In this document: positions 7,223 to 18,301 of the stretch, in pieces
Layout: each line of letters begins with the position of its first letter
Position numbering within the stretch: position 1 is the stretch's first letter
IMG/VR virus record: IMGVR_UViG_3300009158_000259
Location: 1 to 20,127 of that record
Direction: 5' to 3' (one strand)
From: a virus
Length of the DNA: 20,127 nt
Notes under the pieces: generated by a model
Told to the model about the DNA's origin: nothing
The model's database searches: none
What the model saw: only the letters and a program-made list of their open reading frames with translations
Program-made: the position numbers and the translations under genes

Positions 7223-8028
7223 TGAGTAAATTCATAAAATATGAAAATTTAGATTTTAGAATAAATAACGATATTTTTTATTCTACATCTGTTGAAATTT
7301 CAATTCAAACTAATATAGAACCAATATTGTTATCTGATGGTTCATTGTTAAGATATGCCCCTCAAGGTACAATTGTTGGTTCATTGACTACTGAGTTTTT
7401 TTTAATTGGCGCTTTTCCTAACTATCTAGTTCCAACTAGTTCCACGGAAAGCCCTGTAAACGCTATCTTTGCAGGAGTTCAAATAGAAAATTGTTATTTA
7501 AAAAGCATTTCTTTTCAAGCTTCTCAGTTCTCTCCAATTTCTTTGAACGCTGAATTTGATTGGTACGGTCAAATAAATAATAAAGATAGCACAAATAGTC
7601 TAAAACCTTTTTCCGCTACAAGAAACGCAAGCTTAAGTCAAATATCTCATTCTAATAGATCTTACATTAGCGATTTAACAAATGTTTTTGGTTTTTCAGA
7701 AATCTTTGGTTTTCAATATTCTGAACAATGTAACAGAATTCCATTTTTCAAAAATGATGAAATAGTTCCTTTTAGAGTGGCAAAAACAAATAAAACAAAA
7801 AGCGTAACAGTTGATGGCAATTTTTTTAGGCAAAATAATATAAATAGTATAGAAGGAAAAGACGTTAATTGTGATTTATTTTTAAAGGATTATAATAATA
7901 CATTATTAAATAATTTTAACGTTTCTGGTAAAATAGAATCAAGAGGCTTGTCGATTAGCAACAATGGGATATTGCAAAGCAAACTATCTATAATGCAACG
8001 TTTAGCGCCGTTAAGGAGTTCTTTATGA
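7222..8028 (+). CDS. Second putative tail-tube-like protein, paralogue of the 305-aa protein
   Basis: This 268-aa protein starts within the preceding stop codon (TAATG). It is beta-rich with no signal peptide and no membrane segment. The N-terminal YENLDFRIN (7-15) matches YENIFYLNG in the 305-aa protein. Two half-repeats are visible: one with a CYLKSISFQASQF strand pair near 91-115, and one ending in NNFNVSGKIESRGL... at about 231-262. These occupy the same positions relative to each half as the corresponding strands in the 305-aa protein. The opening of the second half (FGFQYSEQCNRIPFF) also resembles the second half of the other protein (FDYSINCPKKPIYLL). Both therefore look like divergent copies of one two-domain tail-tube-fold protein. 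Likely role: a ring at the distal tube or tip that adapts sixfold tube to threefold tip symmetry. This is inferred from architecture and position, not from a recognised family. Confidence 0.5.
   Translation: MSKFIKYENLDFRINNDIFYSTSVEISIQTNIEPILLSDGSLLRYAPQGTIVGSLTTEFFLIGAFPNYLVPTSSTESPVNAIFAGVQIENCYLKSISFQASQFSPISLNAEFDWYGQINNKDSTNSLKPFSATRNASLSQISHSNRSYISDLTNVFGFSEIFGFQYSEQCNRIPFFKNDEIVPFRVAKTNKTKSVTVDGNFFRQNNINSIEGKDVNCDLFLKDYNNTLLNNFNVSGKIESRGLSISNNGILQSKLSIMQRLAPLRSSL
8013..8018 (+). promoter_or_regulatory. Shine-Dalgarno (AAGGAG) for the M-like gene
   Basis: AAGGAG lies six bases before the ATG at 8025, inside the 3' end of the 268-aa gene. It supports this start, which overlaps the upstream stop as ATGA. 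It is the only good Shine-Dalgarno seen before any gene start in the window. Confidence 0.7.
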
Positions 8029-10028
8029 GTAAATTTTTAGACACTCAATTTTCAATTACAGGTATAAAGGATTTTGATATCACATCCGTTTATCAAAAAT
8101 ATGATTTGATTGACTTTGAATATTATACGGGAGACGCCAAAGATCCTAGAAATTTAAGTGGATTATTCGCTTGGTTTAATGTTGATAATCTTAATAACCT
8201 AGAAATTGATGTTTCTGGTAAAGTTTATAAATGGTATAATTCTGCTCCAGGTCATGGGGTGGCTCAAGATTTACATAATACTGAAAACTATATTTGGAAA
8301 AAACCGACATATAATAAAAATAATAATTCAATAGTATTTTCTTCTGATCTTGCTAAATACGAGTATAGTGAATTATATACAACAGGCAATTCCAACCCAG
8401 GAGACACGCATTTTAAAGAATTCGCAGATGTTGATCGTTGTTGGTTCTTGGTCTATGAATTTGAAGACTTAAGAAGAGGAGATTATGGTTACACAATCAT
8501 GCCAAATATATCTGCAATAATTAATACGTTTCATACAGGCGCGTTATCATATGGTTTTATAGGTGCTTCAGGAAATAATGAAATTTATAGTTGGAATTCA
8601 AATGTTCCAAAGTCATCACAACAATTTGTTATTGATGTCAACGCCGCTGCTGAAACCTCACCTAATATTTTAAATTCTGCATTTTCATCCGCTAAATTAA
8701 TTAAAAACAAAAACATTCTATCGGTAATAAAAAATAATACATCTAATAATTTAAGAATTAGGAATAATGGTTTTGAGGTATTAAACACAACTTCTTCGCA
8801 ATGTTTTCCGTCAGGAGCTACGAGTTTAAAGATCGGGGCAGGAGGTAATACTCATTTGACTGATAATCCTTTGTATAATTATGACGCTTCAAATATTTCA
8901 TATTATGAAATTTTAGGTTTTTCTAAAGTTCCTACAAATACAGATATTTTAGCGGTAGAAAAATATTTGTTTGAAAAACATTTCGTTAACGATGATGGTT
9001 TATATATAGCTAAAGAAAATTTTACGGCTTCTAGTTATAATTTTTCTCCAATAAATATAAGCGGATCTGATTATTTAACTAGAGACATAGATTCTATTTT
9101 TAATAAAACTTACGGATGCTCCGCTTCTTTTAGCACAAAAGCTCAAAGAATAAATTATGGTGATGGATATGTGATTAATGTAATACCAAATATAAATAAC
9201 CTTAATTCAGAATTTAATTTATCTTATGACGGTTTGACGGATAAACAGGCTAAATCTTTGATAGGATTTTTTCAAAATACTTTCGAATACACTCCTAAAA
9301 ATATTACAGATTCATACGAAAGCGTAAATATGGAATTGTTTTTTCCATATAAAAATAATGCTAAGATTTATTTTTCTGATTTGCAATATAATTCAGTAGA
9401 AGCTAATTTAAACAAAATAGATATAAAGTGTATTTCTACATACGATTCTAGTTTGGATTATAAAGGGTTTTTAGTTACTGGCAAAAATGTGACTAGTTTA
9501 TTCCAAAATAATAAAAGGCATTTTTATAATGATGTTGTTTATTTCGATTCTAACGCTTCTAGTAATAGAGGGTATTATTGGTTTACAGGAGCAGATAATA
9601 CATTTGTAACTCATACAACAAATCCAACTGGAGTAAATAGTTTATTTACAAGATCTTTTTATTTTAAACCTGATTTAAATTTTGATGTTCCGGTAAATCC
9701 TAAATTTATAAAAACAGAATATGATTCATCCGCTCCTGCTTTTGAAAATTACGGTATAAATAAAACCTGTTTAGAATTCACTTTTAATTATAATAACAGA
9801 AGCGATAAAGAAACAGAGGCTATATTAAAATTTTTAGATTCCAACGCTGGTTTTAAAATCTTTGAAATGAGACTACCAGAACCTTATAATAAATTAATTG
9901 ATTTATATTGTCCAGAATGGAACCACACATATAAATTTAAAAATAACCACGATATGTCTGTAAAATTTATAGAGTTCAAAGGTAAAACTGATTCTGACAT
10001 TTTTTTTAACACATTATTAGTATTATGA
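8025..10028 (+). CDS. Lambda M-like minor tail protein with tandem M-like domains and N-terminal LamG-like domain
   Basis: This 667-aa protein is over six times the length of lambda gpM (about 109 aa), a tail-tip ring protein. Residues about 45-320 look like a LamG/concanavalin-type domain: an opening LFAWFNVDN...GKVYKWYNSA and a closing YYEILGFSKVPTNTDILAVE...YLFEKHF, the usual frame of such domains. Residues about 366-485 begin with QRINYGDGY, the counterpart of gpM's RFGDGY near its N-terminus, followed by an LTDKQAKSLIGFFQN helix. A second M-like unit at about 560-667 has SDKETEAILKFLDSNAGFKIF, an EPY motif and YCPEWNH. These match in order gpM's ESFLEEHGGWKSFLW, PPY and TCAKW. Its position upstream of L fits M. 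It is the best-initiated gene in the operon and overlaps both neighbours by 4 bases (ATGA). The M assignment comes from remembered lambda motifs; the LamG call rests on general pattern. Confidence 0.7.
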   Translation: MSKFLDTQFSITGIKDFDITSVYQKYDLIDFEYYTGDAKDPRNLSGLFAWFNVDNLNNLEIDVSGKVYKWYNSAPGHGVAQDLHNTENYIWKKPTYNKNNNSIVFSSDLAKYEYSELYTTGNSNPGDTHFKEFADVDRCWFLVYEFEDLRRGDYGYTIMPNISAIINTFHTGALSYGFIGASGNNEIYSWNSNVPKSSQQFVIDVNAAAETSPNILNSAFSSAKLIKNKNILSVIKNNTSNNLRIRNNGFEVLNTTSSQCFPSGATSLKIGAGGNTHLTDNPLYNYDASNISYYEILGFSKVPTNTDILAVEKYLFEKHFVNDDGLYIAKENFTASSYNFSPINISGSDYLTRDIDSIFNKTYGCSASFSTKAQRINYGDGYVINVIPNINNLNSEFNLSYDGLTDKQAKSLIGFFQNTFEYTPKNITDSYESVNMELFFPYKNNAKIYFSDLQYNSVEANLNKIDIKCISTYDSSLDYKGFLVTGKNVTSLFQNNKRHFYNDVVYFDSNASSNRGYYWFTGADNTFVTHTTNPTGVNSLFTRSFYFKPDLNFDVPVNPKFIKTEYDSSAPAFENYGINKTCLEFTFNYNNRSDKETEAILKFLDSNAGFKIFEMRLPEPYNKLIDLYCPEWNHTYKFKNNHDMSVKFIEFKGKTDSDIFFNTLLVL

Positions 10029-12649
10029 CATATGTCAATTTAACAGGCAAACTTATTGGCGAGTGTTTAACTGGCTTTGGTATTCATTTGCCTATAACAA
10101 TTATAAATAGTGGTAATTCTGATATTAATTATTTATTTGATATAAAAAACGATTCTGATAAATTGTTTTCGTTTTCTCAACCTTCATTACTAATAAATAA
10201 TGGTGATAGTAAGATTGTAGATATTTTTTATAAACCAAAAGAAGTCGCATCCGCAGTGAATGATGAATGTGATTTTTTAATTTACAGCGAATCGGTTGAA
10301 GATGGCGCTACAGATCCAAGCGGGGTTATTACGATTGAGATTACTGGATCAAGAATAATAAATAATACTGCTGGACATGTAAGAAATTTTGTTGCATTGA
10401 AAAATTATGATTTAAATAAAGGAGTAAATTATGACTTTATTTGGTCACCTCCGACTGGAACTGGAGTCTTAAAAAATTATTTTTTTACAGGATATCAGTT
10501 AGATATTTCTACAATTAATGATTTTTCATCTATAGTATTTGTTACGGGTTTTAATATCGCAGAAAATACAAATAAAAACCCTAGATTCAGTAAGTACTAT
10601 GGTTACGATTCTGAAGAAAAAATAATTAGAAACGTCTCAAATAAAGATTTTACATCTCTAACTTTAGATACAGATTATTACGCTCGTTTATATACATATA
10701 GTGTTGGTAATTCTGGTATAAACATTTACGCTTCTGGTATCGAAAGTTTGAATGATCAGTCCTCTAGCGAAGTGATTAACGGTTTTTCAGGAGCCGCCGC
10801 TACTCGTCCAAACTTGAAATTTGAAAAGAAAGCTTTGAATGTTATTGTTACTCAAGGTAATTATATTAACTATGATTTATATAAAAAAATCTTAGATTCA
10901 AATGCTGGTTCTCCAGATTTAAGTTTTTATTCAGGAATTAACATGTATTTATCTGCTGGTAGCTCTTTCATGTCTAGCGATGAAAATAATTATGCTTTAG
11001 ATTTTAAAAACGGTATTTTTCAAAATTTTTCAGGCGATAACACTTATGGCACAAATATAAATATTTATGTCCCTGAAAGAGTATCTATTATCGGTAATCA
11101 TGGTAAAGGTGGAGATTTGTCTAATGTTATAGCTCTTGATACAGCACAAACCGTTAGAGCTAATCTAAAACCAGTTTTTGATGCTTCTGTTTACTCCACT
11201 ACCAATGGAATGTCAGATAGCAAAAAAGGTGGAAATTCTTTAAATTTTAATAATAAAATTTCAATTAATAACGAAACAACTGTTAGAACAAATATAAATT
11301 ATAATGTTTTTATTCAAAAAACATCGCAAATAAATGCCGGTGGTGGAGGAAATAAGGCTGGTGTAGGATTTTTAGGAGGTGGAAATAAATATATAGGGGT
11401 AGGTTCTGATGGTATAGAAAGAAATATTGCGTTTCCAATAAGAGGATCAAATAATAATCAGAATACATTTTTTTCAGTTAGAGCTGCCCAAAGGACAACA
11501 TTGCAAGATGTTGTTAAATTATATTCACCTAATCCACAATATGGAGAAGATGCTATTGATAATATAATAAAATATACAATAAATGATAATTCTTTTACAA
11601 CGAATTCTGATATTATAGTTTATAATCCTGACTTGCCTGTGCAAGAAAATGTATCAACTATACCTGATTTACAAACAAAATTCGTTAAAATCAATAATAA
11701 TGCGGCAAGCTCTTGCGGTTATTTAGTAAATAAATATTTAAACTCTAATTTAAAAATCAACTTTTATAACGATGCCGTCATAAGCGATTACATTTTTAGA
11801 TGTAATAATTCTGATTTATCAGGTAGTCCGTCGTCGTGGATAGGTAAAAACTCTCAATCAGCAACTATAGTAACTTTAACTGGTGATGGAACATATGTTG
11901 CAGATTTTGAGGGGTTAGGATACAAAGCGATATCTTTGCCTGATACAAAATATTTACAAGGGTTATTTTCTTCGTCTGTTAATTGTACGGATTTTGATTT
12001 ATTTATAGTTGGTTGTTTTAAAGGCTCGTCTTATACGGAGCAAATTTTTAAAATGTTTAATTGGTATAGTTCGCCTACTAACATCAGCAGTAGAAATGTT
12101 CTTTTGCGACCTTTTTTAAAAACAGCTTATAAAGCTTTTTCAAAAGAAAACAACATTTTTAGTTTCTTTTTCTCTTTATTATATAATAGCACGATAGATA
12201 ATAAAAATACGGCTAGTTTTTATCAAGCTGCGAATGATCCAGCTTTAATTAGTTCGTATTTTCAAATTTCTAAACAATTAAACGGTTCTGGTAATTATTA
12301 TCCTTTTATTTTAAATATTCAAAGATCTAATAATAGATATTCAATTTTTATTAATGGAGAAAGATATTGTATGTATGGTTTTACTGACAAAACAAAATAT
12401 TTAAATAATTTAAACAATACCACTCTACAATTGAAAAACGAAGGTGGAACTTTAACTAATTCTTTTTTTGATATTATATTTTATAATAGAACTTTGTATA
12501 ATAATGAAAGATTACAAATGTATAATTCATTAAACAAACAATATTTAAAATTATTTGCTGGAGAAACTGGTTCTTCTTTACTTGTCGATAGTCAGATTCA
12601 ATTGCCAAATATTTTCAATTTAGCTGGTAAAATAAATACACAAACATAA
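10025..12649 (+). CDS. Multidomain tail-tip protein (Ig-like ASH, FN3-like, Gly-rich, LamG-like domains)
   Basis: This 874-aa protein overlaps the M-like gene by an ATGA junction. Residues 1-110 resemble an ASPM/SPD-2/Hydin Ig-like domain (PITIINSGNSDINYLF...LINNGDSKIVDIFYKPKE). About 118-245 is FN3-like, with an FIWSPP strand start and TDYYARLYTYSVGNSG near the end. At about 343-460 there is a glycine-rich part (IGNHGKGGD, GGGGNKAGVGFLGGGNK), similar in flavour to Gly-rich tips of phage adhesins. About 597-855 looks like a LamG/concanavalin domain, ending with FFDIIFYNRTLYNNERLQMYNSLNKQYL. Such proteins are usually adhesins or tip-attached fibres, so a receptor- or glycan-contacting role at the tip is likely. 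No enzyme motif was seen. It lies between the M-like and L genes, which are adjacent in lambda. Domain boundaries are estimates by eye. Confidence 0.6.
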   Translation: MTYVNLTGKLIGECLTGFGIHLPITIINSGNSDINYLFDIKNDSDKLFSFSQPSLLINNGDSKIVDIFYKPKEVASAVNDECDFLIYSESVEDGATDPSGVITIEITGSRIINNTAGHVRNFVALKNYDLNKGVNYDFIWSPPTGTGVLKNYFFTGYQLDISTINDFSSIVFVTGFNIAENTNKNPRFSKYYGYDSEEKIIRNVSNKDFTSLTLDTDYYARLYTYSVGNSGINIYASGIESLNDQSSSEVINGFSGAAATRPNLKFEKKALNVIVTQGNYINYDLYKKILDSNAGSPDLSFYSGINMYLSAGSSFMSSDENNYALDFKNGIFQNFSGDNTYGTNINIYVPERVSIIGNHGKGGDLSNVIALDTAQTVRANLKPVFDASVYSTTNGMSDSKKGGNSLNFNNKISINNETTVRTNINYNVFIQKTSQINAGGGGNKAGVGFLGGGNKYIGVGSDGIERNIAFPIRGSNNNQNTFFSVRAAQRTTLQDVVKLYSPNPQYGEDAIDNIIKYTINDNSFTTNSDIIVYNPDLPVQENVSTIPDLQTKFVKINNNAASSCGYLVNKYLNSNLKINFYNDAVISDYIFRCNNSDLSGSPSSWIGKNSQSATIVTLTGDGTYVADFEGLGYKAISLPDTKYLQGLFSSSVNCTDFDLFIVGCFKGSSYTEQIFKMFNWYSSPTNISSRNVLLRPFLKTAYKAFSKENNIFSFFFSLLYNSTIDNKNTASFYQAANDPALISSYFQISKQLNGSGNYYPFILNIQRSNNRYSIFINGERYCMYGFTDKTKYLNNLNNTTLQLKNEGGTLTNSFFDIIFYNRTLYNNERLQMYNSLNKQYLKLFAGETGSSLLVDSQIQLPNIFNLAGKINTQT

Positions 12650-13689
12650 TGAATACTTTATTTAAACTTAATAATTATGTTGTTATAGATTTGTTTGAAA
12701 TAGAGTTAGAATCTAATGAAGGGTATTTAAGATTTCATGGATCTAAAAATTTTAATAAAAATTTAATTTTTCAAAACAAAGAGTATATTTTTATACCTTG
12801 TGAATTTTCGCAATTTGAAACCACATCAGACGGAAGACAAGGAAGGCCAAAGATAAAAGTAGGCAATATAAATAATTATTTTTCAAGAGTTCTTCAAGAT
12901 AGAGGCGACTTGATTGGAAAAAATTTTAATAGAAAAAAAATATTAGCTAAAGATTTAGACGTAATTAATTTTACTGATGGTAAAAATCCATTTGGAACCT
13001 CTAATTTTAATACTTATATTTCTTTTGATAAATTGATTGTTAGTGCAAAATTAACTGAAAATTTAAATGAAGTGGAGTTAGAGTTGGTTACTAAGGTCGA
13101 TGTTCAAACTTTAACCATTCCAGCAAGAAAGGTGACAAATGACACATGTTCATGGAATTATCGTTGTTATGGTTGTAATTATGGAAATACAAGAACATAT
13201 GCTGGTCCTAATTTAGGCGTAACAATTGGAGGGGGATTTCAAAGTGTTTTAGGAGCGCCGGTTGCGGATGAAAATGATAAAATTTTTGTCAGTACGTATA
13301 ATGAATTTTCTAATAATGGAAATTATAATTTAACCTCTTTAACTTATAAAGCAGAATGGTTGGAAACCACAGTATATAATAAAGCAGATTTTGTTTATTT
13401 GGACGCTTTATTCGATACAAATTTGGAGTCGGAAGAAGCTGTTTTATCTCCATTAAATAAAAATAAAAATTATTTTGTTTGTATTGCAGACGGTGTTCTT
13501 AATAAAAATCCTTTAAAAAATACTGATGTTTGGAAACAGGATAAATGCTCTAAAACTTTACAAGGTTGCAAACTTAGATTTGGAAATAACACTACTAGAG
13601 CTTTTACAGATGGCTTGACATATCTTCCGTTTGGAGCATTTCCAGCAACATTTCCTTATAATAATGAAACTACCAAATCAAATATGTGA
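12649..13689 (+). CDS. L: Tail tip protein L (iron-sulfur type) with CBM5/12-like insertion
   Basis: This 346-aa protein starts in the preceding stop codon (TAATG). It matches lambda gpL in order: VVIDLFEIEL near the N-terminus, FETTSDGRQGRPKIKVGN, then DLIGKNFNRKK, LDVINF, LTIPARKVTNDTCSWNYR, and near the C-terminus DKCSKTLQGCKLRFG and LPFGAFP. Cysteines 167, 176, 300 and 307 are the probable ligands of the Fe-S cluster known in gpL; Cys173 is an extra nearby cysteine. In lambda the two cysteine pairs are roughly 25 residues apart. Here about 120 residues intervene, and part of them (about 225-298: AEWLETTVYNKADFVYL... NYFVCIADGVLNKNP...DVWKQ) looks like a CBM5/12 chitin-binding-type module. 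L joins the M ring to the J hub in the tail tip. Family call secure; the module call is pattern-based. Confidence 0.88.
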   Translation: MNTLFKLNNYVVIDLFEIELESNEGYLRFHGSKNFNKNLIFQNKEYIFIPCEFSQFETTSDGRQGRPKIKVGNINNYFSRVLQDRGDLIGKNFNRKKILAKDLDVINFTDGKNPFGTSNFNTYISFDKLIVSAKLTENLNEVELELVTKVDVQTLTIPARKVTNDTCSWNYRCYGCNYGNTRTYAGPNLGVTIGGGFQSVLGAPVADENDKIFVSTYNEFSNNGNYNLTSLTYKAEWLETTVYNKADFVYLDALFDTNLESEEAVLSPLNKNKNYFVCIADGVLNKNPLKNTDVWKQDKCSKTLQGCKLRFGNNTTRAFTDGLTYLPFGAFPATFPYNNETTKSNM

Positions 13690-14002
13690 GGAAATTAAAA
13701 GATATTGTTTGGATAATAGAACCGTTGAGGTTTGTGGTTTTGTTGTCAAAAAAGATGATTTAATTTCATTTATACCTGTCGATAACAAACACCCAGATAA
13801 GAAATGGTTTTTTTTGATATCTCCAGAAGATTATTTGAAAATAAAAAAAGAATATGTTATATTATATCTATTCCATAGTCATCCTTTAGACGCTTCATTT
13901 TCTAATTTTGATTTAAAATATCAAAAATATCATAATATGAATATGCTATTATATAATGTGGCGGTAGATTTGTTCGAAGAAAAACGTGTAAATATATATT
14001 AA
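13664..14002 (+). CDS. K: Tail assembly protein K, JAB/MPN domain only
   Basis: The 112-aa product from ATG 13664 is preferred. The frame extends to a TTG at 13631, but the added 11 residues are not family-like and would deepen the overlap with L. With ATG the overlap is 26 bases. It is a JAB/MPN (JAMM) metalloprotease-like domain: Glu22 in VEVCGFV as the general base, then HSHPLDASFSNFD, giving zinc ligands His71, His73 and Asp83 with Ser80. Spacing is HxH-x6-SxxD, one residue shorter than the common x7. Lambda gpK is about 200 aa, with a C-terminal NlpC/P60 cell-wall peptidase half that is absent here, as the gene ends soon after the JAB core. K acts with I in tail-tip assembly in lambda. 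Located exactly between L and I, so identity is well supported; proteolytic activity is unproven. Confidence 0.82.
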   Translation: MKLPNQICEEIKRYCLDNRTVEVCGFVVKKDDLISFIPVDNKHPDKKWFFLISPEDYLKIKKEYVILYLFHSHPLDASFSNFDLKYQKYHNMNMLLYNVAVDLFEEKRVNIY

Positions 14003-14003
14003 T

Positions 14004-14573
14004 ATGGTAACCATAAAACTTCATGGTATTTTTGAAGAATTTGTTAAAACAGATTGGCTTTTAAATGTCAAAACTGTTGGAGAAGCTTTTGAAGCTATAG
14101 AGGCTAATAGTAATAAAATGTTAACAGCTTTAGGTAATATGCAAGAATATTTGACGCATTTTATTATATATGTTGATGATAAAATCATGCCTCCAGAATA
14201 TTTAAACTCTCCAATTTTGAACAAAAACTCAAAAATTGAAGTAGTTCCTTTAATGTTAGGAGCTGTTTTTGTTTTTGACGACTTTTTAATTGCTTTAGTT
14301 ATTATGATTATTGCTATGGGTATTCAAATGTTGGTCACTCGTTTAATGTCTCCAAAAGCCGCAAAAGATATAAAAAACAATTCCAGAATGTTTTCTGGCT
14401 ACGAAAACGTTACCAAACGTAATGTAGCTATTCCTATTGGATATGGAAGATTAAAAATTGGAAGTATTGTCATATCTAACGATTTGCAAATAAAAGGAGT
14501 TATAGACAATCCAGCGGGCGGTAATTTAGGTGGTTCATATGGTGGAATAAACAATAATAAGAAGATTAATTAA
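14004..14573 (+). CDS. I: Tail assembly protein I (ubiquitin-like N-terminus, membrane-associated)
   Basis: This 189-aa protein begins one base after the K stop (TAATATG), with no Shine-Dalgarno. Residues 1-85 form a ubiquitin-like/beta-grasp pattern (VTIKLHGIFEEFV...VKTVGEAFEAIEAN...IYVDDKIM...SKIEVVPL). Then comes a strongly hydrophobic stretch at about 88-116 (FLIALVIMIIAMGIQMLV), and a conserved-looking C-terminal part with FSGYENVTKRNVAIPIGYG and KIGSIVISN (about 129-160), a hallmark of the lambda gpI family. In lambda, I (about 223 aa) is needed to build the tip but is not found in mature tails. The Ubl domain next to a JAB gene suggests K recognises or clips I, a pairing often proposed for this family. 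The C-terminus is Gly/Asn-rich. Identity is well supported by motifs and by the L-K-I-J order. Confidence 0.85.
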   Translation: MVTIKLHGIFEEFVKTDWLLNVKTVGEAFEAIEANSNKMLTALGNMQEYLTHFIIYVDDKIMPPEYLNSPILNKNSKIEVVPLMLGAVFVFDDFLIALVIMIIAMGIQMLVTRLMSPKAAKDIKNNSRMFSGYENVTKRNVAIPIGYGRLKIGSIVISNDLQIKGVIDNPAGGNLGGSYGGINNNKKIN

Positions 14574-14581
14574 ACAATAAT

Positions 14582-17500
14582 ATGCTTACTTTTGATATTA
14601 AAAATTTAGCGGACGGCCCCACAACTGAAGAGGGGCAAGGCTTATTGAATTCAAATGGAGTTTCTGCCAACAGCACTGTCGCAACGAATACAAATTCAAA
14701 TTTAAATGCAAGTCAAAGTAGCGCATCACAAACAAACATTAGCGCGGATCAACAAACGAGTGATGTAAAAATTTATTTAAATAAAGATTTATATGGTCCA
14801 ATTAGTTTAGCAGGTAGCCCGTCCGACAGTTCAAGAAATAAAACATTGGATACAGAAAGTTTATACATAAGCTCTGATTTATTATGTGAAGGTCCAATAG
14901 AAGGGTTGGTTGATCCAGATGGATCTACATTAAATTATTTATCTTTGGACTCCAATGTTGCTAATGCGAGTTCTTCATTGGCTTATGGAATGTATTATAA
15001 TGACACTCCTATTAGAGATAAAAAAACTAATTTTTTAAATTTCTCTGCTGCTAACTTTTTCGTTTCTTACGGTCAAGAAATTGATAATTTAAATAGTACA
15101 CCCAGCGCTGTTTATAGTTATAATTCTAGAATATATGATTTAGACATAGATCCAGGAATTACTGAGTTTAAACTTTATCAATTTGATGAAGCTTTATTCA
15201 CAGATTCAACATTAGTCCCTTTACAGCAAAAACTAATAAACGCTAGAAACATATCAAGAAATTTCTCTCATTATGTAAAAAACAAATATACAACAAGAGC
15301 CACAGTAAATATAAAAGTAGATACCTGTTTTTATATTGGTGGAGATGGTAGCACGTTTAGTAATCATGCAAGATTTGTAGTTTGCGTAACTAATTTATTT
15401 ACTAGAACTAGGGTTTACTATTTTTTTCAAGGCTACTTTGTGGTTAAAGGAAGTCCAACTTTAATTCCTATAGAAATTGAATTTGGTAAAAAGAACGATT
15501 TAAAATCGAATAACCCAGAATATATAATTAATATTTATAGTGTAGAAAAAAGACTATCAGCTTCTGATGAAAAAACTAATAATTTTGCAAAAGAGTTTTA
15601 TGTTGATTCTGTAATTGAAAAAGTGGGATATAGATTTTCTTATCCATACTCGGTAGTGTGTGAAAATAAAATAAGTTCTAAACATTTTTCTAATGTTCCG
15701 GTAAGAAGTTTTGATTGTAAATTATTAAAAATAAAAGTTCCTGAAAATTACGATGCTGACGTTCACGAATATATTGGTGATTGGAATGGCTATTTCAGTA
15801 AAACATTAAAATGGACAGATAATCCAGCTTGGATATTTTATGATTTATGTTTAAATAGTAGATACGGTCTTGCTAAAACTTATATAACAGAAAACGATTT
15901 AAATAAATGGGAAATGTTAAAAATATCAAAATTTTGTGATGAATTAGTGATAACCAACTCGGCAACAAAATATAATGCAGATAATTTTAGCTACGATAAT
16001 AAGTTAAAAATAGATGAAAAAAATTATAATGCTATTACGTTTACATGGTCTAAATCTATCAATGAGTTAAGAGATGCATATCCTGAAAATGGTATTTTAT
16101 TTTTATATGATGTTGTAAATGAATCGGAAGAAAATATAAATATAAATTATAAAAAGATCATTTTATCCGCATCTCTTGACGGAACTACCGCTAGATTAAA
16201 GTTGTGTAATGATTTCGGAATGCGAAGATTTATAGAGTCTGATAGTTCAGGAGAATTCTATAAAAATCTACAAGTGTATATAAGTGGCAATCCAGCTATT
16301 TTAAACACAGAGGAAAAAATAAAGTTTTATGCTTTGAGTTATATAAATTCATCTGTTACTAGCGAATATCCTTCTTCTAATACTTCAATAGCGCAGAAAT
16401 TTACTAAATCTAAAATTTTCGATTCAACTTTAAAAATAAAATCAGGAAAATGTGTAGCTAGACAACAAGATTATTATGATTTCTTGGAACCTAGATTTTC
16501 GGCAAATATATATATAAATGAAAATGTAGAGGGTTTGAAAATTCTTTCTGATTTAGCGTCTGTTTTTAGAGGTGTTTTTTATTTTAGAAATGGTCTTTTG
16601 AATTTAACGACAGATGTTAAAAAACCTGTTGTTTACTTGTTTACAAATTCAAACGTAAAAGAAGGAAATTTTACTTATACATCTGCAAACTTAGAAACGT
16701 CTTTTTCTGTTGTTAAAGTGTCTTATTTAGACAAGACTGACAATTTCAAAGATAAAATCATTAATGTTGAAGATAGTTCTTTAATTAAAAAATACGGTTT
16801 GATAGAAAAAGAAATTTTAGGTTTTGGTATAACTTCTAGATATCAAGCAGAAAGAATCGGTAAATGGTTTTTAGCGACAAGTAAATTGGAGTCGCAAACA
16901 GTCTCTTTTAGTACAGGTATAGAAGTAACAAATATAAAAATTGGAGATATAGTCAGAGTTGCTGATGATCTTAAATTTAGTAAATTAGCTTTTGGGCGTG
17001 TGGTGAGTTTAGATTTTAAAAATAATTATATTTATATTGATCGTGAAGTTAATCCAACAGTTTTAGGTAAAAAAATAAAAATCTTTTCTATCGTTGATGA
17101 CGAGCCTTTAGAAACTACGCTAAGTGTTTTTGCTGTTGATAATCCAAATTTAAGATTACAGATTTTTTCTAAATCATTTGTTTCTTGGAATTCGGTTGCT
17201 AAAATTTTATCTTCTGAAGATGGGTCTATTGTTCGCGGTGATAATACTGGTTCAGCAGGTTGGACTAGAAAAGGGTATACAAAACAAAACTTTGTAGATA
17301 ATTGTCAAATCTTTTATAAAGTTACATATCCGTCTACATATTTGGCATGTGGTTTAAGCTCAGTTAATAATATTACTATTGACCAAACTGATATTGATTA
17401 TGCGTTTTATATTTCAGGTGGAGCGTTATATGCTATTGAAAAAGGGCTTTATACGACAGCTAGTCCTTTCAATTTTAATAAAACAATAAATGAAAAATCT

Positions 17501-18301
17501 GTTTTGAAAATTGTTTTCGATGGAACAAAAATTATTTATTTCTTAAATGATGTGAATTTAAGAGAAGTAACTCGTTCTATTGGAAATTCTTTATACGGTG
17601 TTATAGCTTGTAATACGCCATATGCCGAAGTTAATAATTTAAATTTTACAACTTATCCAGATATAGATTATGGCAGGTTTTCTAATTTGAGAGCAGACGC
17701 TAATTTTTCTATTTATTATGATGACTCTTCAGAGTCGGAAGATTTATACAGAATAATCACAATTAATGAAACATCAGCTAATGAGTATAATATTACAGCG
17801 ATGAGATATAGCAATGAAAAGTTTGATTATGTTGATGAAGACAAATATATAGAAAAAAATCAAAACACTAAAAAACAAATTGTTTTTAGTACAGATGATT
17901 ATATAAAATCAGCGCTATCTGATTTTTTGATTTCGGAAGGTGATAATATCATTTTAAGGAATTTGTCTTATGCTGAAGTTGTTTCAAAAGATTTCGATTA
18001 TAGTTTCTATATTGAAAATGAAATTTTTACTTCAAATTTTAATCAAAAAAAGTATGAAGCAGCGGAAATAAATTTTATAAAATATTTTTCTTATTTAACT
18101 CTTAACCCTTATGTTTATGGTTTATATTGTACTATAATAAAAGATGGTAAAATTTTAAAATTCAAAGTTAATAAAAATGAAGCAGCTAAAATAACAGTTT
18201 TTTTAGGAGAAAAAAGAGAAAGTCTAGCTTCACAAACAGCTCTTTCTTTTGATATAGATGTGTATGCTTTTGATTCAAATATGAAATTAATTAATGTGTA
18301 A
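14582..18301 (+). CDS. J: Central tail hub / host specificity protein J
   Basis: This 1239-aa protein starts 8 bases after I. It is a lambda gpJ-type hub, trimeric in lambda, which closes the tube and carries receptor-binding parts. Diagnostic stretches: ISSDLLCEGPIEGLV (about 96-110), VPENYDADVHEYIGDWNGYF (about 387-406), DNPAWIFYDLCLNSRYGL (413-430), CDELV (452-456), EPRFSANIYIN (636-646), and a hub barrel with IGDIVRVADD (about 780) and DLYRIITINE...YNITAMRYSN. Two insertions stand out. About 180 residues (457-635) separate CDELV from EPRF, which are only some ten residues apart in lambda. A LamG/concanavalin-like stretch (about 868-1025: SWNSVAKILSSED, LKIVFDGTKIIYFLNDVNL, NNLNFTTYP) interrupts the later barrel region. 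The C-terminus (to 1239) is shorter than might be expected for receptor binding, a task that may pass to the next gene. Family call is secure; insertion folds are tentative. Confidence 0.92.
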   Translation: MLTFDIKNLADGPTTEEGQGLLNSNGVSANSTVATNTNSNLNASQSSASQTNISADQQTSDVKIYLNKDLYGPISLAGSPSDSSRNKTLDTESLYISSDLLCEGPIEGLVDPDGSTLNYLSLDSNVANASSSLAYGMYYNDTPIRDKKTNFLNFSAANFFVSYGQEIDNLNSTPSAVYSYNSRIYDLDIDPGITEFKLYQFDEALFTDSTLVPLQQKLINARNISRNFSHYVKNKYTTRATVNIKVDTCFYIGGDGSTFSNHARFVVCVTNLFTRTRVYYFFQGYFVVKGSPTLIPIEIEFGKKNDLKSNNPEYIINIYSVEKRLSASDEKTNNFAKEFYVDSVIEKVGYRFSYPYSVVCENKISSKHFSNVPVRSFDCKLLKIKVPENYDADVHEYIGDWNGYFSKTLKWTDNPAWIFYDLCLNSRYGLAKTYITENDLNKWEMLKISKFCDELVITNSATKYNADNFSYDNKLKIDEKNYNAITFTWSKSINELRDAYPENGILFLYDVVNESEENININYKKIILSASLDGTTARLKLCNDFGMRRFIESDSSGEFYKNLQVYISGNPAILNTEEKIKFYALSYINSSVTSEYPSSNTSIAQKFTKSKIFDSTLKIKSGKCVARQQDYYDFLEPRFSANIYINENVEGLKILSDLASVFRGVFYFRNGLLNLTTDVKKPVVYLFTNSNVKEGNFTYTSANLETSFSVVKVSYLDKTDNFKDKIINVEDSSLIKKYGLIEKEILGFGITSRYQAERIGKWFLATSKLESQTVSFSTGIEVTNIKIGDIVRVADDLKFSKLAFGRVVSLDFKNNYIYIDREVNPTVLGKKIKIFSIVDDEPLETTLSVFAVDNPNLRLQIFSKSFVSWNSVAKILSSEDGSIVRGDNTGSAGWTRKGYTKQNFVDNCQIFYKVTYPSTYLACGLSSVNNITIDQTDIDYAFYISGGALYAIEKGLYTTASPFNFNKTINEKSVLKIVFDGTKIIYFLNDVNLREVTRSIGNSLYGVIACNTPYAEVNNLNFTTYPDIDYGRFSNLRADANFSIYYDDSSESEDLYRIITINETSANEYNITAMRYSNEKFDYVDEDKYIEKNQNTKKQIVFSTDDYIKSALSDFLISEGDNIILRNLSYAEVVSKDFDYSFYIENEIFTSNFNQKKYEAAEINFIKYFSYLTLNPYVYGLYCTIIKDGKILKFKVNKNEAAKITVFLGEKRESLASQTALSFDIDVYAFDSNMKLINV

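Follow-up and report, generated by a model that had tools for sequence, protein, structure and literature searches.

A predicted small-barrel domain inserted in the conserved hub of a lambda-type tail-tip protein J from uncultured phages

Introduction

Few tail-tip proteins of siphophages have been studied as well as protein J, whose conserved hub is known from lambda, T1 and T5. In lambda, J and L form a three-fold cone, as described in PMC10721106. The J protein encoded by the virus record IMGVR_UViG_3300009158_000259 raises a question on this hub, because its residues 459-634 (about 176 residues) stand where a lambda-type J has a six-residue loop (PDGFGG in a lambda phage). What is this stretch, which phages carry it, and what may it do at the tail tip? 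The whole record, 20,127 bases in length, was analysed and is called the window in this paper.

Results

Gene J and the insertion site

The tail genes of the window are arranged in the lambda order. A long open reading frame (ORF), whose 5' end is open and which sits at the tape-measure position, is followed by five more ORFs, by L, K, I and J in the order of a lambda-type tip, and by the start of a tail-like gene. Gene I (14004-14573, plus strand) encodes a tail tip assembly protein (PHROG 32, E 1.1e-16). Gene J (14582-18301, plus strand), for the tail-tip hub or central fibre protein, is a single open frame of 1239 codons. Its product matches PHROG 31 'central tail fiber J' with E 8.8e-99 and Pfam family PF13550 with E 3.3e-15, which is above the family cut-off. 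By sequence, the hub matches the J chains of lambda, T1 and F2-pyocin, and lambda gpJ chain 8iyk_J is found at E 1.8e-117 with profile A5, an alignment of 96 rows for which three insert regions (L241, L238 and L173) and 12 canonical ones were left out of 85 + 25 regions. An AlphaFold2 model of J 83-880 (96 rows) has a mean pLDDT of 87.2. The modelled hub matches the tips of lambda, T1, Sf11, JBD30, Chi and T5, with 8xcg_Z aligned at Z 26.1 over 497 residues (rmsd 8.1) and 9occ_E at Z 15.2 over 425 residues (rmsd 3.6). By sequence, hub fold and gene order, the window J is a lambda-type J hub protein.

In the layout of a lambda-type J, a loop of about six residues connects a helix ending in CD-x-x-V to EPRF; the equivalent stretch of Phage Lambda h434 imm21 reads CDQSVPDGFGGTEPRITC. 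In the window J, CDELV is located at 452-456 and LEPRF starts from 635. The N-terminal flank of the insertion site (J 376-458; 15707-15955, plus strand), conserved hub that reads ...WTDNPAWIFYDL...KFCDELV, is delimited by alignment with lambda-type J. The inserted domain (J 459-634; 15956-16483, plus strand) is delimited by the flank alignment, the spacer surveys and AlphaFold2, and the C-terminal flank (J 635-800; 16484-16981, plus strand), with LEPRFSANIYIN... and PF13550, by Pfam and alignment. When eight J proteins are aligned with that of the window, seven have the short loop and one, the close relative L002, has the insert. In the alignment of the hub profile with lambda gpJ, the profile jumps from position 403 to position 557 where gpJ goes from residue 318 to 319. 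The flanking motifs and these J alignments bear out the original prediction, which placed an insertion without repeats between J residues 457 and 635 (15950-16486). The absence of repeats also holds: self-BLASTP detects no internal repeats in the insert, and no direct DNA repeats are found at it. Its DNA contains two 12-base inverted pairs, one of them made up of A/T only, and these are taken as chance.

Distribution among phages

In a first survey of 93 J ORFs, the spacer beyond the fixed flanks is 3 residues long in 71, 4-18 in five and 169-221 in 17. Three further viral-contig scans and one genome-contig scan were added to give a larger set of 269 J ORFs, each recovered with its two flanks, which includes the window itself and ten named-phage loci; ORFs with one flank only (14 with the N-terminal and three with the C-terminal flank) stand outside this count. 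In the larger set, the spacer is 145-261 residues long in 185 ORFs, which represent 136 distinct insert sequences, and shorter than 30 residues in 84. The J spacer is therefore bimodal, with an insert in one state and a loop in the other. Because the search patterns are largely derived from the hub, and because each scan contributes at most 80 loci, with the limit on candidates reached in three scans, the fraction 185/269 describes the loci recovered and is no measure of how common each state is. The insert is nevertheless not rare among uncultured phages. The set of 183 insert and 74 canonical ORFs used for some of the comparisons omits L005 (the window again), L006-L015 (named phages) and L284.

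The last of these, contig CAISTO010000340.1 of a metagenome-assembled genome (MAG) labelled Bacteroidetes, encodes J with the insert and is probably of phage origin. Among 296 genomes of this phylum, two matches are obtained, the MAG of L284 itself and G083 (E 1e-4). The G083 match is set aside, because it appears antisense to an ORF that we take, from its sequence, to be kinase-like. As a side observation, the genes of L284 comprise a partial L, K, I, the insert-bearing J and a long gene of GSSGTSG repeats, and L001 and L002 resemble it in this.

Named phages were searched with several queries. A 424-residue hub query matches 1527 of 50,697 phage records, none of which covers 80% of it. Among the 60 of these 1527 matches that were listed, which are taken from all along the ranking, 58 are in two pieces, in all of which the record span is 171-176 residues shorter than the query, and these phages therefore lack the insert; the remaining two are single pieces, which are uninformative on this point. 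The insert alone finds nothing better than E 4 in the phage records, and the divergent insert queries L026 and L021 give no match. The L027 query matches 59 records, with at most 41% covered among the 12 matches listed, and the L208 query matches four, over its last 14-15%. The longest L027 match, Aeromonas phage pAEv1818, was considered as a carrier, because the match reaches the insert; its J, the one examined among these 59 records, reads CDEMVSNGAGGKEPRF, with a short loop, and this candidate is rejected. A tblastn match to Vibrio phage phiV208 (L010) starts inside the insert, yet its J also has the short loop. A putative shared insert piece in PHROGs 2148, 10652 and 15723, for which the matches start at J 602-605, is likewise rejected: PHROG and tblastn matches that start within the insert are read as spurious extensions, because the phages looked at (phiV208 and pAEv1818) are canonical.

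No named phage with the domain is found in the phage record collection searched. No description of this J insertion is found in the open-access library searched, a scope outside which most subscription papers lie; on this count, the original prediction is not refuted. The accessible text of the papers on JBD30 and T1 (PMC11445458, PMC11945409) names no such domain.

Relationship of the inserts

When the 183 inserts are linked by BLASTP matches at E<1e-5 that cover at least 70% of the length, two groups result, of 178 and 5; at 1e-10, there are four, of 131, 36, 11 and 5. This grouping by single linkage is lenient, and identity to the window insert goes down to 12%. An insert profile, A6 (64 rows), finds 180 of the 185 insert ORFs and none of the 84 canonical ones. 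The inserts of L235, L245, L252, L271 and L272, which are 145-168 residues long, are matched to the others neither by BLASTP nor by the profile, four of them even though they are rows of the profile's own alignment. They are inserted at the same place, and lie on the same side of the tree, as the main family, of which they may be a diverged form; alternatively, they may represent a second domain or insertion there. How the main family is read is independent of them.

On a tree of 121 rows constructed from the flanks only, with the insert columns removed, the insert trait requires one change, as compared with a mean of 40 changes when the labels are shuffled. The 66 insert rows lie on one side of one branch, for which the SH-aLRT value of 85, from a quick search, represents moderate support. 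The insert may have been gained twice, and no loss of it is seen among the 66 insert rows. When the ORFs of the recovered loci are searched with the insert profile, 13 further matches are obtained outside the recovered J ORFs, all of which are fragments of J where a contig ends or is broken; no copy of the insert outside J is found in these ORFs.

Predicted structure and conservation

In the hub context, AlphaFold2 gives the insert a pLDDT of about 95, with ten-residue blocks at 92-98 except for one at 79. The insert modelled alone (64 rows) has a pLDDT of 92.5 and a pTM of 0.86 and contains the same elements as in the hub. The impression that the insert looks folded is thus supported by confident models in both settings. 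According to DSSP, the insert consists of six strands and six helices; a single short helix links strand 2 to strand 3, and the other five separate strand 5 from strand 6. Strands 1-5 and the short helix span J 467-543 (15980-16210, plus strand), the helical cap, which is mostly less conserved, spans J 547-609 (16220-16408, plus strand), and strand 6, IKSGKCVA, spans J 619-626 (16436-16459, plus strand). The strand order and the structural matches described below suggest that the strands close into a barrel.

Conservation is distributed unevenly over these elements. In the 15 closer rows, the fraction of consensus kept is 0.65-0.76 for strands 3-6, 0.52-0.61 for strands 1-2 and 0.39-0.58 for five of the six helices, while helix 2, at 0.74, equals the best strands. 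In all 64 rows, the values are 0.37-0.49 for the strands and 0.25-0.46 for the helices. Only one column within the insert is invariant in these 64 rows, the Gly of strand 6; two others are located in the EPR flank. A single invariant Gly speaks against a conserved catalytic site, and no conserved set of aromatic or polar residues stands out in the 64 rows. The dN/dS values against five relatives are 0.08-0.25 for the insert, 0.03-0.08 for the N-terminal flank and 0.04-0.10 for the C-terminal flank, with an insert/flank ratio of 1.3-4.6; these ratios are rough, because dS exceeds 1 in many comparisons. The insert is coding and under purifying selection, and the comparison with the five relatives gives no sign of positive selection in it.

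The original prediction also recognised no family in the insert, and no convincing Pfam, PHROG or PDB sequence match is obtained. The 64 insert rows match 13 Pfam families at E<=0.1, in one row each, with a best E of 0.0048. The matches to enzyme families, GH99 (0.054), topoisomerase (0.041) and methyltransferase (0.076), are probably fortuitous, and inteins and homing endonucleases are not represented among the 13. The same rows match 23 PHROG families at E<=0.1 (best E 0.0054, at most three rows each), which are taken as chance, and give no match to GTA_TIM at E<=0.1. Profile A6 finds three distinct PDB sequences at E<=10, and the K1 lyase discussed below is not among them. Foldseek detects no match at E<=0.001 in PDB or BFVD, the best values being 0.033 and 0.019 respectively.

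When the insert is compared with 996 chains by VIA-align, Z is at least 2 for 786 chains, at least 5 for 61 and at least 8 for none; below 8, the tool warns of mere common arrangements, and the absence of Z>=8 excludes no named family. The top rows are two chains of a K1 capsule lyase, 7w1c_B (residues 135-230) and 7w1d_H (residues 139-229), with Z 6.2 each, rmsd 3.3 and 2.8, and 81 and 76 residues aligned respectively. An N4 tail chain, GH110, a chain of an efflux-pump complex and a helicase tie with them at Z 6.1-6.2, and T5 pb9, the Chi tip and ATPase and translation-factor barrels follow at lower values. The modelled core is therefore taken as a small barrel of a widespread type. No structural match is found for the helical cap. 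The proposal that the insert is a new tip domain is supported in that the insert is found in no named J protein of the collection searched, but not as regards a new fold, because a small six-stranded barrel of a widespread type is not clearly one.

Genes K and L

Gene K of the window (13631-14002, plus strand) encodes a JAB domain only (PF14464, E 3.9e-6), and neither Pfam nor an alignment with four K proteins reveals an NlpC/P60 domain in it. In a survey of 232 loci, not dereplicated, in which J is preceded by 1.9 kb or more of sequence, JAB is present in 166/166 insert loci and 64/66 canonical loci, and NlpC in 6/166 and 57/66 respectively. Among the 121 dereplicated rows, 4 insert rows have NlpC and 58 do not, 42 canonical rows have it and 5 do not, and 12 rows have too little upstream sequence. 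NlpC changes at least six times on the tree. We considered whether the insert is functionally linked, independently of ancestry, to the absence of NlpC/P60 from K, and make no such claim: the raw association is strong, but only one independent tree pair bears on it, so that ancestry can explain it.

Gene L (12649-13689, plus strand), the tip partner of J, matches PF05100 in two stretches (E 5.9e-34). Four cysteines of its product (167, 176, 300 and 307) correspond in an alignment to the Fe-S cysteines of lambda L. The second and the third of these are separated by 123 residues (177-299; window 13177-13545), as compared with 22 in lambda L. The L piece AEWLETTVYNKADFVY recalls what we take to be a chitin-binding (CBM5/12) motif. 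At this place of L, the hub proteins of R4C and RcGTA have a domain that is named oligosaccharide-binding in PMC7296036 and PMC10276861.

Discussion

We lean, with somewhat better than even confidence, to the reading that the insert is a clade-specific hub-insertion domain of J that braces or decorates the tip, a structural decoration that is neither an enzyme nor a swappable receptor-binding module. The six-stranded core and its helical cap would be set into the loop that joins the hub helix NKWEMLKISKFC to the EPRF strand. As to its position on the trimer and its function, we infer that three copies project from the cone, because three J subunits form the tip in lambda. The outside of the hub, where the original prediction puts the insert, is its putative location. 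The conserved core may pack on the hub or on the neighbouring J subunit and brace the tip in this way, and the less conserved cap would be the outward face, able to contact host surface material. The insert is retained on its side of the tree, its core is conserved, its cap is for the most part more variable, and a candidate catalytic residue is lacking; these properties fit a bracing decoration with a variable face. The first-ranked, though tied, structural match, the K1 lyase with its inserted rider, and the sugar-binding-type insertions of the R4C and RcGTA tip proteins point the same way. A more far-reaching version, which we regard as doubtful, is that the domain is an unrecorded tip part marking a large clade and acts, on the HDII-HDIII block, as an external lock or lever that helps the cone to open. 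In T5, HDII-HDIII turn as a rigid block when the tip opens, as described in PMC10038345. The cone might then be helped to open when the cap touches the host surface, or when a contact with the neighbour is released, in phages that mostly lack the NlpC/P60 domain of K.

The chief rival, possible but clearly less probable than a bracing decoration, is a receptor- or glycan-binding module, in which core and cap bind a host sugar or protein and host range drives change. The long insertion of L, at the place where the R4C and RcGTA hub proteins have their oligosaccharide-binding domain (PMC7296036, PMC10276861), is consistent with it. So are the dN/dS values, which are higher for the insert than for the flanks, and the structural matches, which include the phage tail or depolymerase proteins K1 lyase, N4 tail, T5 pb9 and Chi tail tip. 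Receptor modules are often exchanged between phages, however, and the insert is not lost in any of the 66 rows on one side of one branch. Its dN/dS does not exceed 0.25, no aromatic or polar residue set stands out as conserved, and J has a long C-terminal part and is followed by a fibre-like gene. The domain might alternatively be a docking platform for a partner absent from lambda, such as the L extension, K with its JAB domain only, or the protein encoded by the next gene. That the insert loci mostly have a K without NlpC/P60 and that L carries a long insertion speak for such a role, which we nevertheless rate as rather unlikely: the K pattern is explicable by shared ancestry, with only one independent tree pair that differs in the insert, and the group formed by L253, L254, L219 and L242 combines the insert with NlpC.

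The missing NlpC/P60 domain in most insert loci could also be explained if the insert were an enzyme, for example a peptidoglycan or capsule hydrolase that replaces this domain of K. This is very improbable, given that the Pfam matches over the 64 rows are weak and chance-like (best E 0.0048), that the one invariant column of the insert is a Gly, that the core is small with a helical cap, and that six insert loci keep NlpC. Inteins often lie in conserved stretches, and the insert sits in one. A mobile or degenerate element (an intein or a homing-endonuclease remnant) or an assembly error is nonetheless hardly conceivable, because the insert is found at the same site in 185 ORFs, requires one change on the tree, is under purifying selection and has a compact, confident fold in the hub.

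Folded domains inserted in the conserved core of the J hub are known from lambda gpJ. As described in PMC10721106 and PMC13243795, these are an HDII-insertion with FNIII-A (72-215) and a beta-sandwich/OB domain in HDIV (483-569). The insert resembles them in being such a domain and differs from them in site, the property by which they are compared here, because it lies between lambda residues 318 and 319; by this comparison with PMC10721106, it is none of the known insertions of lambda. HDII-ins3 of Jersey phage, known from prediction, is a further insertion domain in a J-like hub, but is described with an Ig-like match and located on the N-terminal finger (PMC13243795), and it is by this description only that it is set apart from the insert.

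The 'rider' of the K1 lyase is described in PMC8822698 as a protruding, barrel-like inserted domain, likened to the I-domain of P22 coat protein. It contacts the neighbouring subunit, mutations in it lower the stability, and its loops line a second sugar pocket. The matched lyase residues 135-230 probably correspond to the rider, as judged from the mutated residues 154-215 given there. The insert and the rider are alike in that a barrel-like domain is inserted in a trimeric phage protein, though the match (Z 6.2) is weak and tied, and unlike in that the rider is carried on a beta-helix and the insert on a hub, with no sequence relation shown. The likeness would thus be one of analogy and not of descent; common descent is not claimed, because other barrels tie. 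In T5 pb9 and the RcGTA distal tail protein, an OB-type insertion similarly provides a tail-tip protein with a small barrel (T5 pb9 chain 5mf2_C aligns weakly with the insert, at Z 5.2 and rmsd 3.9 over 83 residues), but the carrier protein is another. We know of no helical cap in these OB-type insertions. The hub and megatron proteins of RcGTA and R4C carry sugar-binding-type parts, according to PMC7296036 and PMC10276861. The peripheral domain of the megatron is described there as a large part beside the hub core that is held to contact surface sugars, and is comparable with the insert in this respect, but it has about 515 residues in RcGTA and is mannanase-like by prediction in R4C. The hhalign probabilities for a site shared with this domain (R4C, RcCronus) are 0.2-16.5%, and a shared site is not claimed.

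With a folded domain in the hub core across a large environmental clade, tips are built differently from those of the cultured models, and the difference lies at a defined place that is open to testing. The insert can also serve to recognise, by sequence, a group of phages for which the collection searched yields no named representative.

Two other proteins or regions of the window were observed in the course of this analysis. A 667-residue protein encoded at 8025-10028 has a Phage_min_tail domain as its C-terminus (545-649), and its long N-terminal part matches no family at E<=0.01. Upstream of the insertion site, J 170-352 (window 15089-15637) is modelled as a beta-sandwich roughly at the place of FNIII-A of lambda, and this sandwich aligns with jelly-roll domains, some of which are carbohydrate-binding (Z 6.3-7.7).
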